Below, piece after piece: positions 27,431 through 52,536 of a stretch of DNA of 64,000 bases. Each line of letters opens with the position of its first letter. The first letter of the stretch is position 1. Below the pieces are notes generated by a model that saw only the letters and a program-made list of their open reading frames with translations, was not told the DNA's origin and did no database searches. Made by a program: the position numbers and the translations under genes. Source of the stretch: Granulicella sp. 5B5 (GTDB taxonomy: Bacteria; Acidobacteriota; Terriglobia; Terriglobales; Acidobacteriaceae); the NCBI RefSeq assembly GCF_014083945.1, contig NZ_CP046444.1, positions 868,001 through 932,000 on the forward strand, given 5' to 3'.

Positions 27431-28747
27431 ATGCAAACCACCCGTCGCGACCTCTTCAAGACCGGCCTCGCCACCGCCGCAGCCGCCGCGCTCCCAGCCT
27501 CCGCCGCCATCCCCCGCCACACCCACAGGACGCTCTCCGCCACCGAGCTCGAAGCCAACTACACCAAACTCAACGCCGAGCTCGCCCGCCCCGTCTTCAG
27601 ACGCGAGCTCTTCCCCAACCCCGTCGTACTCGACTCCATCGAGCTCCTCCACTACAAAAACTCCTGGCTCTGCCGCGTCCGCTCCACCAACGGTGCCGAA
27701 GGCATCTCCATCTCCAACGCCCAGCAGATGAAGTCCCTCTATCCCATCTTCGTGGACCGCGTTGCACCCTTCTTCCTCGGCCAGGACGTCCGCGACCTCG
27801 AACGCCTCCTCGACCTCTCCATGGTCTACCAGTCCAACTACAAAGCCACCGGCCTCGCCGTCTTCGTCCCGCTCGCCACGCTGGAGTTCGCCATCCTCGA
27901 CCTCTTCGGCAAGATGTCCAACCGCTCCATCGGCCTGCTCATCTCCGACAAGATCCACAACCCCAAAATCGCCGTCTACCAGGCCAACGGCGAGCGCTAC
28001 ATCTCCCCGGAAGAGACCATCGCGCACCTCAAGCGCGACGTCGCCATCTCTCATGCGAAGGCGATCAAGTTCAAACTCGGCGGCCGCATGTCGCACATCG
28101 AAACCCCGCCCGACCGCAGCGCGCGCCTCATCCCCATGGTCCGCGAAACCTTCGGCGACCAGATGGTCATCTCCGCCGACGCCAACGGCTCCTACACGCC
28201 GGAAGAAGCCATCCCCATCGGCAAACTCATGCAGCAGTACAAGTACGCGTTCTACGAAGAGCCCGTCCCCTTCGACAACTACGACGGCCTCCAGCAGGTC
28301 GCCGACGCCCTCGAGATCCCCATCGCCCTCGGCGAGCAGGAGCCCTCCACCTGGAACTTCCGCCACGTCCTCGCCCACAATGCCGTCGGCATCGTCCAGC
28401 AGGACATGTTCTACTTCGGCGGCATGTGCCGCTGCATGAAGGTCGCCCGCATGGCCGCCGTCCTCAACAAGCAGTGCATCCCGCACATCAGTTCCACCGG
28501 TCTCGGCTACCTCTACATGATGCACTTCGTCTCCGCCATCACCAACTCCGGCCCGTACCACGAGTTCAAGGAGTTCAACAACGATCTCCCCTACAAGTGC
28601 GCCACCTCCACGCTCCGCTCCAACGCCGACGGCGTCATCACCGTCCCCACCGGCCCCGGAGTAGGCGTAGAGATCGACCCCGACTACATCAAAAAACACG
28701 AAGTCATGAAAGTCATCAAACCCGCCAACTTCAAAGACGCCGAATAG
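27431..28747 (+). CDS. Enolase-superfamily (mandelate racemase/muconate lactonizing-type) protein, Tat-exported
   Basis: 438 residues. A Tat leader TTRRDLFKTGLATAAAAALP opens the protein. The capping domain and (beta/alpha) barrel follow. Catalytic KxK is in IKFKLGG, metal ligands are Asp in SADANGSY, Glu in FYEEPVPFDNY and Glu in ALGEQEPS, and the late barrel carries HISSTGLGYLY. This fits acid-sugar dehydratases of the mandelate racemase subgroup; export of such an enzyme is unusual but seen in Acidobacteria. GAGG lies eight bases before the ATG. Confidence 0.88.
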   Translation: MQTTRRDLFKTGLATAAAAALPASAAIPRHTHRTLSATELEANYTKLNAELARPVFRRELFPNPVVLDSIELLHYKNSWLCRVRSTNGAEGISISNAQQMKSLYPIFVDRVAPFFLGQDVRDLERLLDLSMVYQSNYKATGLAVFVPLATLEFAILDLFGKMSNRSIGLLISDKIHNPKIAVYQANGERYISPEETIAHLKRDVAISHAKAIKFKLGGRMSHIETPPDRSARLIPMVRETFGDQMVISADANGSYTPEEAIPIGKLMQQYKYAFYEEPVPFDNYDGLQQVADALEIPIALGEQEPSTWNFRHVLAHNAVGIVQQDMFYFGGMCRCMKVARMAAVLNKQCIPHISSTGLGYLYMMHFVSAITNSGPYHEFKEFNNDLPYKCATSTLRSNADGVITVPTGPGVGVEIDPDYIKKHEVMKVIKPANFKDAE

Positions 28748-28758
28748 CTTTCAAACAT

Positions 28759-28865
28759 CGCCACCGCCGCCGTGGCGAACCTTAGCTAACTTGGCGTACT
28801 TTGCGGGAACGCACTTGCCCTTGCTTTTGCTTTTTTGTTTGTCATTCCCGCAGGAATCTGCTTCT
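28759..28865. repeat. Family C plus family B repeat pair
   Basis: Hairpin head CGCCAC (28759-28764) with GTGGCG (28772-28777), family C tail to GCGGGAACGC (28812), a T/C-rich spacer, then a family B unit TTGTCATTCCCGC...GAATCTGCTTCT ending at 28865. AAGGA directly after the unit (28866-28870) is the Shine-Dalgarno of the cupin gene. The same C-then-B order occurs at 29338-29430 and 49755-49891. Confidence 0.8.
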
Positions 28866-28877
28866 AAGGACCAACCC

Positions 28878-29288
28878 ATGCTCTTCCTCCTTCTCGCCCT
28901 GCTTCAAACGCCGCAGCCACCACCCGTCACCATCTGGCCGCACGGCATCTCACCCCTCGGCATCAAACACAAGGACGACTTCGGCAACCACGGCCTCTCC
29001 ATTACCGTCCACACCACCTCCGGCATCGCCGAAGTCCATGAGACCACCGCCGACGTCATGATCGTCCAGAGCGGCGAAGCCACCCTCATCTACGGCGGCG
29101 AAGTCATCGACCCCAAACGCACCTCCCCGCACGAGGTCCGCGGCACCGGCATCAGAAACGGCACCACCGTCCCCATCACCACCGGAGACGTCATCCACTT
29201 CGCCGCCGGCGTCCCCCACCAATGGATCGTCGCCCCCGGCCACCAGATCACCTACCTCGTCGTCCATATCGAACAACCCACCCCATGA
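28878..29288 (+). CDS. Cupin-domain protein
   Basis: 136 residues: a short hydrophobic leader (MLFLLLALLQTP) and a single cupin barrel. Cupin motif 1 is EVHETTADVMIVQSGEATL and motif 2 is FAAGVPHQWIV. The leader suggests export. Ligand and reaction unknown. AAGGA stands seven bases before ATG 28878. The TGA stop overlaps the next gene's ATG (ATGA), indicating a cupin-esterase operon. Confidence 0.85.
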   Translation: MLFLLLALLQTPQPPPVTIWPHGISPLGIKHKDDFGNHGLSITVHTTSGIAEVHETTADVMIVQSGEATLIYGGEVIDPKRTSPHEVRGTGIRNGTTVPITTGDVIHFAAGVPHQWIVAPGHQITYLVVHIEQPTP

Positions 29289-30667
29289 CCCCTTCCCTTA
29301 AGCCCGAGCCAAACAACACTCGTCTCCAACAGCCCCGCCGTAGCGAAACTTCGCTCACTTTGCGGACTTCGCGGGAGACGCTTCTGCTTTTGCTTTTCTT
29401 GTTTGTCATTCCCGCACGAAATCTGCTTCTCGCCCAATCCACCCCAAAAGCCCAGCTTGAGCACCTCCGCCAGCAAGCCATACACGCCCTCTACATCGAC
29501 GACCCCCTGCCGCCGCTCCACACCCATGCCTATGGCTCTCTCCTCGCCACCCCCAACATCCGCGTCGAGCACATCACCTTCGCCACGCAGTTCGGTCAGC
29601 GAGTCCCCGCCATCGTCTACGTCCCAACGCACACCCACGGCAAGCTCCCCGCCATCGTCGTGGTCAACGGCCACGGCGGCGACAAGAGCTCCTGGTACGC
29701 CGTCTACACCGGCCTGCTCTACGCCACCGCCGGCGCCGTCGTCGTCACCTACGACCCCGTCGGTGAGTTCGAGCGCTCCATCACCAAGGGCTCCGAAACC
29801 GGCGAGCACGACAAGCCCATCCCCGGCCTCAAACATCCAGAACGCGTCGGTGGCTGGATGATCGAAGACGTCATGCAAGCTGTCCGCTACGCCGCCTCGC
29901 GATCCGACGTCGACACCACCCGCATCGCCGTCCTCGGCTACTCCATGGGCTCCTTCCACGCGATCCTCGCCTCGGCACTCGCCGGCCCGCAGCTTCCACG
30001 CATCCGCGCTGCCGTCCTCTCCGGTGGCGGCAACCTCGACGGCCACAACGAATACTGGGACTCCAGCCCCAAGCTCAACTGCCAGTCCGGCCCCTACAAA
30101 GCCCTCGACTTCCTCGGCGCCGCCTCTGGCACTTCGGATAAAAGAGGCGCCGTCCTCTACGCCCTCCGCGCTCAATCCGGCCCCACCTACATCATGAACG
30201 GCGAGCAGGACTCCCTCATCACCAAGTTCAACGAGAAGGAGCCATTCTTCGCCGCCCTCCGTCTGCGCATCGCCGCCATCACCGGCTCGCAGACCAATCT
30301 CCCCGAAACCATCTGGTTCCCCGAAGCCGGCCACCGTCCCAGCTGGGTCACCCGCCCCGCCGCCCTCTGGCTCAACCACCAGCTCCACTTCCCCAACTGG
30401 ACCGACGCCCAGATCGACGCCTTCCCCACCATCCGCGCCGCCGAGTGGGTCGCCAAAACCGGTGTCCGCATCTCGAAGGGCTACCAGGTCGAGCAGAAGG
30501 AAGGCGGAGTTCTCGCCCTCGACCTCAACCTTCCCGGCCTCACCCGCGAGCAACTCGAAGCCGTCCCCGAATCGGACTGGCAAAAGAACCACACCCTCTA
30601 CACCCTCGAAGGCTGGACCCCGAAGGCCCTCGCCGCCGACGCCACCGCCACCGCCCCGAGGCCTTGA
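29285..30667 (+). CDS. Alpha/beta hydrolase with a repeat-encoded N-terminal leader
   Basis: 460-residue esterase-like hydrolase. Nucleophile Ser lies in LGYSMGSFH (about S220), followed by NGEQDSL (acid) and EAGHRPSW (His), the normal triad order; NGHGGDKSSW resembles the oxyanion loop of acetyl-xylan-esterase-like enzymes. Residues about 18-51, including the hydrophobic LLLLLFLFVIPARNLLLAQ that looks like a signal sequence, are encoded by a family C and a family B repeat (29338-29430). The true start may be this ATG, coupled to the cupin stop, or a TTG inside the repeat. Confidence 0.82.
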   Translation: MTPSLKPEPNNTRLQQPRRSETSLTLRTSRETLLLLLFLFVIPARNLLLAQSTPKAQLEHLRQQAIHALYIDDPLPPLHTHAYGSLLATPNIRVEHITFATQFGQRVPAIVYVPTHTHGKLPAIVVVNGHGGDKSSWYAVYTGLLYATAGAVVVTYDPVGEFERSITKGSETGEHDKPIPGLKHPERVGGWMIEDVMQAVRYAASRSDVDTTRIAVLGYSMGSFHAILASALAGPQLPRIRAAVLSGGGNLDGHNEYWDSSPKLNCQSGPYKALDFLGAASGTSDKRGAVLYALRAQSGPTYIMNGEQDSLITKFNEKEPFFAALRLRIAAITGSQTNLPETIWFPEAGHRPSWVTRPAALWLNHQLHFPNWTDAQIDAFPTIRAAEWVAKTGVRISKGYQVEQKEGGVLALDLNLPGLTREQLEAVPESDWQKNHTLYTLEGWTPKALAADATATAPRP

Positions 30668-48171: not shown

Positions 48172-49779
48172 ATGGCTGTCGTTGCTGGAGTCGATTTCGG
48201 AACCCTCAGCGTGCGTGTCACGCTCTTTGACAGCGAGCGCGGACGCCTCGGCACTGCTTCCGCTGGCTATCCTCTGCACCGCCGTCGCGAAGACCCTGAC
48301 TTCGCCACGCAGTCCCACGACGATCAGATGCAGGCCCTCGCCAAAGCCACACGCGACGTCCTCCAGCAAACCGGCATCTCTGGCGCCGACGTCGTCGCCC
48401 TCGCGCTCGACACCACCGGCTCCTCCGTCATCCCCGTCGACGCCCACCTCCAGCCGCTCGACGACTACATGCTTTGGTGCGACCACCGCGCCCACGCCGA
48501 AGCCCGCGAGATCACAGCCCTCGCCCACGCCGAGCACCTCGAAGCCATCGACTGGTGCGGCGGCGTCTACTCCCACGAGTGGGGCTTCGCCAAGCTCCTC
48601 TACTGGCTCCGCCACAACCCATCTCTCCGCGAAAAATTCGCAACCGCTTTAGAACACTGCGATATGGTCGCCGCCACCCTCATCGGCATCACCAACCCCG
48701 CCGAAGTCCCACGCAGCATCTGCGCCATGGGACACAAGTGGATGTGGAACCCCCGCTGGGACGGCCTTCCGCCGCAGTCCTTCCTCTCCAAGCTCGATCC
48801 TCTCTTCGACGGCATCCGCGAAAAACTCAACAGCCGCTACAGCACCTCCGACGCCATCGCCGGCCATCTATCCGAGCACTGGGCAAACCAACTCGGCATC
48901 CAACCCGGCATCCCCATACCCGTCGGCGCCTTCGACGCCCACTGGGACGCCATCGGCGCCGGCTGCCGCGAAGGCGACGTCGTCAATGTCGTCGGCACCT
49001 CCACCTGCATCATCGCCATGGCCGCAAAAACCGAGCTCGTCCCCGGCGTCTGCGGCGTCGTTCCCGGCAGCGTGCATCCCCAATTCACCGGTATCGAAGC
49101 CGGACTCTCCGCCACCGGAGACATCTTCGAAGCCATCGCCCGTCGCGCCGCCACCGACGTCAAATCCCTCTCGCAGGGCCTCGAAGCCTACGCCCCCGGC
49201 CAGACCGGCCTGCTCCGCCTCTCCTGGGACAACGGCGACCGCACCGTCCTCGTCAACTCCGAGCTCGGCGGAATCACCCTCGGCTGGAACCTCATCCACA
49301 CCGCGCAGGACGAGCTCTTCGCCGCCATCGAAGGCACCGCCTTCCACACCCGCATCATCCTCGACCGCATGGCCTCGCACGGCGTCCCCGTCATCCGCAT
49401 CATCAACGCCGGCGGCATCCCGCAGCACAACGCCGTCCTCAACCAGGTCTACGCCGACGTCCTCAACAAACCCGTCCTCGTCCCAGATGGCGTCCCCACC
49501 AGCCTCGGCTCCGCCATCTTTGCGATGGTTGCCGCCGGCGTCTTCCCCACCATCGAAGCCGCGCAGCAAAAACTCTGCCTCCCCTTCAAGACCTTCACCC
49601 CCCGCCCTGCCGCCGTGGCCATCTACAACCAGCTCTTCCCGCTCTACCGCGATATCTACTTCTCCCTCGGCCAACCCAACAGCCCCGCAACATCCCTCGG
49701 CAACATCCTTCCCGAACTCCGCCGCATCGCCGAACACTCAAGGACTGCACCCTCCCGTGGCGAACCTTTGCTAACGTAG
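48172..49779 (+). CDS. araB: Ribulokinase
   Basis: FGGY-family kinase phosphorylating L-ribulose to L-ribulose 5-phosphate. AGVDFGTLSVRVTLFD (residues 5-20) is the ATP-binding N-terminus, LDTTGSSVIPVD and MLWCDHRAHAEA are ribulokinase-specific, and AGGIPQHNAVLNQVYADVL is the C-terminal FGGY signature. ATG 48172 has GGAG about ten bases upstream. The last residues (SRGEPLLT) and the stop codon lie in a family C repeat (49755-49797), so the C-terminal end has been set by the repeat. First gene of araBAD. Confidence 0.95.
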   Translation: MAVVAGVDFGTLSVRVTLFDSERGRLGTASAGYPLHRRREDPDFATQSHDDQMQALAKATRDVLQQTGISGADVVALALDTTGSSVIPVDAHLQPLDDYMLWCDHRAHAEAREITALAHAEHLEAIDWCGGVYSHEWGFAKLLYWLRHNPSLREKFATALEHCDMVAATLIGITNPAEVPRSICAMGHKWMWNPRWDGLPPQSFLSKLDPLFDGIREKLNSRYSTSDAIAGHLSEHWANQLGIQPGIPIPVGAFDAHWDAIGAGCREGDVVNVVGTSTCIIAMAAKTELVPGVCGVVPGSVHPQFTGIEAGLSATGDIFEAIARRAATDVKSLSQGLEAYAPGQTGLLRLSWDNGDRTVLVNSELGGITLGWNLIHTAQDELFAAIEGTAFHTRIILDRMASHGVPVIRIINAGGIPQHNAVLNQVYADVLNKPVLVPDGVPTSLGSAIFAMVAAGVFPTIEAAQQKLCLPFKTFTPRPAAVAIYNQLFPLYRDIYFSLGQPNSPATSLGNILPELRRIAEHSRTAPSRGEPLLT

Positions 49780-50043
49780 CGCCCTTCGCGGGAACGCTTT
49801 TGCTGTTGCCTTTCTCGCTTGTCATTTCCCCAAGGAATCGGAATCTGCTTTTGCTCTTCTTGTTTGTCATTCCCGCAGGGAATCTGCGTCTCGCCCGTAC
49901 CACCCATGAAGTGTCATCTCGACTGAAGTCCGCGTTCTTGCGGACGCGGCGGAGAGATCTGCGTTTTTTCGCAGGATGCATAAGCATCCGAACTCCCTTC
50001 CACCCGCATTGACACCCACCTTCCCACCTCTCTACACTTCCCT
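49755..50043. repeat. Repeat-filled gap between araB and araA
   Basis: Order: family C (49755-49797, containing the araB stop), family B (49817-49850), family B again (49861-49891), then family D (49909-49965, with an inverted repeat GTCCGCGTTC...GCGGACGC). The last 35 bases before the operator show nothing clear. No gene is seen. Confidence 0.8.
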
Positions 50044-52439: not shown

Positions 52440-52536
52440 TTGTCATTCCCGCAGGTAATCTGCGTTCGTCTTTGCTTTTGTTTTTCTTTCTGTCATTCCG
52501 AGCACAGCGAGGAACCTGCTTCTCGCGCGCGAAGCG
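52440..52536. repeat. Two family B units between converging araD and GH29 genes
   Basis: TTGTCATTCCCGCAGGTAATCTGCG at 52440-52464 and a variant TGTCATTCCGAGCACAGCGAGGAACCTGCTTCTCGC at about 52490-52525 (shown here by its ends TGTCATTCCGAG and GAACCTGCTTCTCGC), followed by the palindrome GCGCGCGAAGCGCGC. Confidence 0.75.

Follow-up and report, generated by a model that had tools for sequence, protein, structure and literature searches.

In a 64,000-nucleotide stretch of the genome of the soil acidobacterium Granulicella sp. 5B5 (GCF_014083945.1, contig NZ_CP046444.1, positions 868,001 to 932,000 of the forward strand; hereafter the window, whose own numbering is used unless stated otherwise), two short interspersed repeats, here called C and B, lie in frame at the start of a gene for an alpha/beta hydrolase, an AXE1-like esterase (29285..30667, plus strand). 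We consider it probable that these repeats inserted at the 5' end of the gene for a secreted hydrolase and took over as its signal peptide. The palindrome-bearing repeat B, joined to C, would have entered the operon at the 5' end of the hydrolase gene, where C would supply the basic, hydrophilic n-region, B, in frame after the ATG, would supply the hydrophobic core LLLLLFLFVI, and the last bases of B would supply the Ala at position -1. The ancestral signal peptide of 16-18 residues would have been lost while the mature enzyme was kept. This reading is supported by an independent parallel: in a symporter fusion, a B copy translated in another frame provides the hydrophobic segment that precedes the beta-lactamase domain.

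The repeat-encoded leader

The full leader of the hydrolase is MTPSLKPEPNNTRLQQPRRSETSLTLRTSRETLLLLLFLFVIPARNLLLA, after which the enzyme continues QSTPKAQLEHL. It begins with MTPSLKPEPNNTRLQQP (29285..29336, plus strand), which has no counterpart in the orthologues. The C unit follows in frame (about 29337..29381, plus strand) and encodes the hydrophilic, basic RRSETSLTLRTSRET. The B unit (about 29382..29435, plus strand) consists of a T-rich tract and a GTCATTCCCGCACGAAATCTGCTTCTCGCCC core at 29402-29426, and encodes LLLLLFLFVIPARNLLLA, so that the repeat-encoded stretch in the hydrolase frame reads T-LLLLLFLFVIPARNLLLA-Q. That C and then B lie in frame at the N-terminus of an alpha/beta hydrolase had been noticed in an earlier, sequence-only reading and is confirmed here, with the units at 29337-29435. 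That reading had both repeats encoding the hydrophobic leader. Both are indeed in frame, but the hydrophobic core and the Ala preceding the presumed cleavage site come from B only, and the hydrophobic stretch that it quoted is present but one Leu longer.

All three C+B copies of the window (28770, 29337 and 49755) align over their full length. The C copy in the leader is too diverged to be found with a C pattern allowing three mismatches, and the B copy of the esterase has lost the palindrome, with ATTCCCGCACGAAAT in place of ATTCCCGCAGGGAAT. As B copies elsewhere frequently end CTCGCCC, the codon of Ala50 belongs to the repeat, and the native hydrolase sequence picks up within the CAA codon. 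The folding of the leader RNA was unremarkable (z = -1.7), and we therefore claim no role for RNA structure.

The leader has the features of a Sec signal peptide, namely a basic n-region, an uncharged core of at least 10 residues and a small residue at -1 (RTSRET-LLLLLFLFVIP-ARNLLLA/Q), with a mean hydropathy of 3.3 over 11 residues. No twin-arginine translocation (Tat) motif (S/T-RR-x-F-L-K) was found in it, as RRSETS does not fit, and it has no Cys for a lipobox. We infer that the hydrolase would be made, exported by Sec and cleaved at or near Ala50-Gln51.

Comparison with orthologues that lack the repeats, which the sequence-only reading had called for, points the same way. The gene order enolase family, cupin, hydrolase is common to the genomes G002, G022 and G025 of the same genus, whose hydrolases are 69-71% identical over the alignment and begin with the same ATGA start overlap. 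Essentially identical orthologues belong to the named genomes of Granulicella mallensis (G022), G. sapmiensis (G025) and Bryocella elongata (G027). The repeat-free leaders of G002, G022 and G025 are MKLLSATLLLAATFATHA, MKLITTTLLLAAALATHA and MKLLITLLLSATLTHA, each followed by Gln; they are ordinary signal peptides of 16-18 residues. Ala50, the last repeat-encoded residue, and Gln51, the first native one, are both invariant columns of the alignment, so the repeat would replace the signal peptide to the residue. The mature hydrolase (29435..30664, plus strand) starts with Gln51, which aligns with the presumed first residue after the signal peptide in four orthologues. That the same-operon leaders without repeats end at the same Ala-Gln lends support to the earlier proposal that B provides a signal sequence.

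Translation start and integrity of the enzyme

The in-frame starts of the hydrolase are ATG 29285 and TTG 29360, 29390 and 29399, and the next is GTG 29660, with no ATG, GTG or TTG in this frame between 29399 and 29660. Initiation at GTG 29660 would leave the protein short of about 75 residues beyond Gln51, and dozens of these are invariant across five aligned proteins. A start downstream of 29430, named by the sequence-only reading as the result that would overturn it, is thus excluded in practice. If the enzyme is made at all, its translation must include the B core (29402 onward), as no usable start separates this core from GTG 29660. TTG 29390 and TTG 29399 lie inside the hydrophobic tract, and their use would cost only its first few residues. 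ATG 29285 is favoured because the ATGA overlap is kept in three orthologues. TTG 29360, inside the C unit, may be an alternative start, giving the compact leader MRTSRETLLLLLFLFVIPARNLLLA (MRTSRET-LLLLLFLFVI...).

The hydrolase frame is intact over 460 codons, and Pfam places the protein in the AXE1 and alpha/beta hydrolase group. It contains the nucleophile motif GYSMG with Ser220 within it, and the alignment makes Asp309 and His350 plausible catalytic partners. Pairwise distances from the three orthologues, computed on the mature part only, give a ratio of nonsynonymous to synonymous substitution rates (dN/dS) of about 0.24-0.32. The mature hydrolase is under purifying selection, and its catalytic part is intact.

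Coding potential of B

In the B consensus, none of the three sense frames contains a stop, and all are hydrophobic (LLLLLFLFVIPAGNLLLA, FCFCFSCLSFPQGICFSP and AFAFAFLVCHSRRESASR). Its sense strand is T-rich, and its open frames yield Leu, Phe, Val, Ile and Cys. In the antisense direction the frames are hydrophilic, and one has a stop. The same difference holds over 51 B copies, in which 132 of 153 sense frames are open versus 91 of 153 antisense frames, with a mean peak hydropathy of 1.12 for sense and -0.97 for antisense. Because all sense frames are open and hydrophobic, a B copy inserted in frame and in the sense direction near a start would be predisposed to serve as a leader, without selection on the repeat.

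Alternative explanations

Several observations weigh against a clean replacement of the signal peptide. With ATG 29285 as the start, the hydrophobic core is preceded by 32 residues; PARN breaks up the hydrophobic stretch; and Leu occupies position -3. The leader insertion is found in no close sister species, so its persistence cannot be demonstrated, and G014, the nearest relative by ProA and the amidase described below, has only a paralogue, 47% identical.

The repeat could also be translated as an uncleaved N-terminal membrane anchor, which we think unlikely. In favour of an anchor, TLLLLLFLFVI markedly exceeds the orthologue leaders in hydrophobicity (best 11-residue hydropathy 3.3, compared with 2.0-2.5), and LLA makes a weaker cleavage motif than AxA. 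Against it, the repeat stops exactly at the conserved Ala-Gln, the apparent cleavage point of the orthologues, and the residues ahead of PARN make only a short stretch by the standard of a transmembrane helix. It is still less probable that the insertion broke the signal peptide, leaving a mislocalised enzyme or a recent pseudogene with an accidentally open leader. A repeat whose consensus is open in all three sense frames would need no selection to give an open leader, and no sister species shows that the insertion persisted. Yet the 460-codon frame, the catalytic motifs and the dN/dS values speak for a working gene, and it would be surprising if a leader without function had a strongly hydrophobic core with Ala placed precisely at the cleavage position. 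Finally, the repeats might be a 5' untranslated or post-transcriptional element with translation beginning downstream, as many N-terminal repetitive extragenic palindromic (REP) sequences have been judged extragenic from shorter homologues (Di Nocera et al., PMC3733652). With no in-frame start from 29399 to 29660, and with about 75 residues of conserved enzyme deleted by a start at 29660, we regard this explanation as very improbable. We favour, on balance, a repeat-derived and cleaved signal peptide.

The operon and the repeat family

The hydrolase gene is the last of a conserved trio. The first gene (27431..28747, plus strand) resembles sugar-acid dehydratases of the enolase superfamily and has a suggested Tat leader. 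The cupin gene (28878..29288, plus strand) has a leader of its own, MLFLLLALLQTPQPPPV, and its stop overlaps the ATG of the hydrolase. A second C+B insertion (28770..28865, plus strand), in the interval 28750-28878, separates the first two genes, which overlap in relatives of the G. mallensis type; an in-frame TTG at 28791 would make its B copy read as a hydrophobic stretch. A third C copy, followed by two B units, is intergenic (49755..49893, plus strand).

Some further features of these genes were noted in passing. The cupin leader of G025 (MNLPSSSAKLRSLRALCVKVF..., L011) looks C-type; the pattern occurs once in G025 and not in G000, so this is unconfirmed. The Bryocella elongata orthologue (L013, hydrolase start) has a long putative N-terminal frame with what appears to be another repeat of the CATTCCGAG type. 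At 30123-30147, a short palindromic stretch, CCTCTGGCACTTCGGATAAAAGAGG, makes a seven-residue insertion in the esterase that is absent in four orthologues; it is single-copy in the genome.

The B core pattern, allowing up to three mismatches, has 54 matches in the 3.93 Mb genome (37 forward and 17 reverse), and the C pattern, at three mismatches, has 12; the reversed control for B and the control for C gave none. Genomic context was surveyed on selected stretches of the genome, where most B copies examined sit just 3' of the stop codon of a gene and in the orientation of that gene. Of 28 genomes of the genus, 18 carry B, with 1 to 170 copies each; among 151 sampled genomes of the class, it is confined to two genera. 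Many of the copies in G002 are arranged in inverted pairs at a distance of about 130 bp. The sequence-only reading had called the repeat mobile, which holds only indirectly, through the many dispersed copies, the empty sites in relatives and the inverted pairs in the sister genome. An origin of B from REP-associated tyrosine transposases (RAYT) was considered and rejected: the three Y1_Tnp genes of the genome are directly flanked by another type of repeat. No terminal GTAG or CGTC tag was found in the copies examined, in which B cores read TTTGTCATTCCC...GGGAATCTGC.

B in other coding genes

The B and C copies outside the leader had been taken to be non-coding. The copies at 28770-28865 and 49755-49891 are real, but three more B copies are read in frame as part of genuine genes, which brings the total to at least 4 of 54 B copies within genes, two in the sense direction as hydrophobic segments and two in the antisense direction as loops; the numbers are small, and the classification is based on reading frames, GC content at third codon positions and alignments. 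The four genes, for the esterase, a symporter-beta-lactamase fusion, ProA and an amidase, are conserved and have orthologues that lack B.

In the second sense case (genome position 983452, in L087, 982000-985500), the B core is in frame, in a frame differing from that of the esterase, and encodes FFCLSFPKGICVSRAQAQ, a hydrophobic segment that connects a sodium/solute symporter with beta-lactamase and NamZ-like domains; the domains were named from the sequence itself, not from a profile search. The antisense copies encode polar, hydrophilic loops, at two sites that G014 shares. That of the amidase (L079, genome position 1265548) is in frame as ATLEKQIPYGNDNQKGKG, is also present in G014 and is absent in the six other species shown. 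That of ProA (L082, genome position 1785572) is in frame as SKTQIPYGNDNKKTSG; G014 has a longer-loop relative and the others have unrelated loops. Another antisense copy, in L076, lies at the possible N-terminus of a further gene (MRKQIPFGNDRQVERVVGIDWSG) and is a candidate only. In a survey of the genus for B followed by Ala-Gln, the only plausible genes were the symporter-beta-lactamase cases, plus the esterase, which mismatches the pattern; a clean replacement of a signal peptide by B is thus not frequent.

The large symporter-beta-lactamase-NamZ frame is present across the genus, and its linker slot holds different repeats in different species: B in G000, G021, G014 and G025, repeat E (GTCATTCCGAGGCGTAGCNGAGGAACCTGC) in G005, G018, G022 and G002, and repeat F (GTCATCCTGAGCG...GCAGTCGAAGRACC) in G015 and G027. 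At least 11 other species have no repeat there. E and F are real interspersed repeats, with copies outside the slot at window position 52492 and in L048, L053, L088 and L121 for E (control 0), and in L057, L112 and L147, among others, for F. When the tree is computed with the slot excluded, the slot labels need 8 changes, and B and F are each scattered. Such a pattern fits repeated insertion, loss or replacement, and the tree does not say which. Tentatively, and with doubts outweighing our confidence, we suggest that repeats of the GTCAT type might serve this acidobacterial group as an interchangeable supply of export and membrane segments that is drawn on time and again, with at least three families (B, E and F) found in one coding slot across different species. 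With a sense strand that is hydrophobic whichever frame is read, they would have given rise to leader segments, or displaced existing ones, more than once.

Relation to known repeats

The idea of a repeat as a signal peptide is not new, as cases in Yersinia and Rickettsia precede ours. In YPO1552 of Yersinia, the YPAL/RU-2 repeat makes up a portion of the predicted signal peptide (Delihas 2007, PMC2759123; review PMC2229807). As in the esterase, hydrophobic residues derive from the repeat. RU-2, however, is 168 bp long, and YPO1552 is a putative protein of 144 residues proposed to be a new gene, whereas here a repeat of about 50 bp would replace the leader of an established enzyme with repeat-free orthologue leaders. 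Rickettsia palindromic elements (RPE) are protein-coding palindromic repeats, and some proteins with RPE-1 at the N-terminus are reported, as cited in PMC3733652, to be expressed in vivo. Like B, they are palindromic and lie in frame in conserved genes, N-termini included. They differ from it in sequence and phylum, and in our case the strand decides between a hydrophobic leader or membrane segment and a hydrophilic loop.

B also resembles the GTAG- and CGTC-tagged REPs in being a short palindrome of high copy number, mostly near gene 3' ends and sometimes intragenic, but its tag is GTCAT, and the RAYT-type genes here are flanked by a different repeat. Intragenic REPs occur in many species, with the caution that those at N-termini are often untranslated, and different REPs have been seen at about one recB site in two Xanthomonas species (Di Nocera et al. 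2013, PMC3733652). Our case differs in that an established enzyme has apparently exchanged its ancestral signal peptide cleanly for a repeat, that the character of the encoded segment follows a strand rule, and that repeat families have turned over in a single slot.

The esterase would provide a before-and-after case in which non-coding repeat DNA replaces a signal peptide and leaves the enzyme itself intact. A simple rule is suggested by it: the T-rich strand of the repeat gives a hydrophobic leader and the opposite strand a polar loop. With repeat families turning over repeatedly in one coding slot, the origin of export signals becomes directly testable with reporters.
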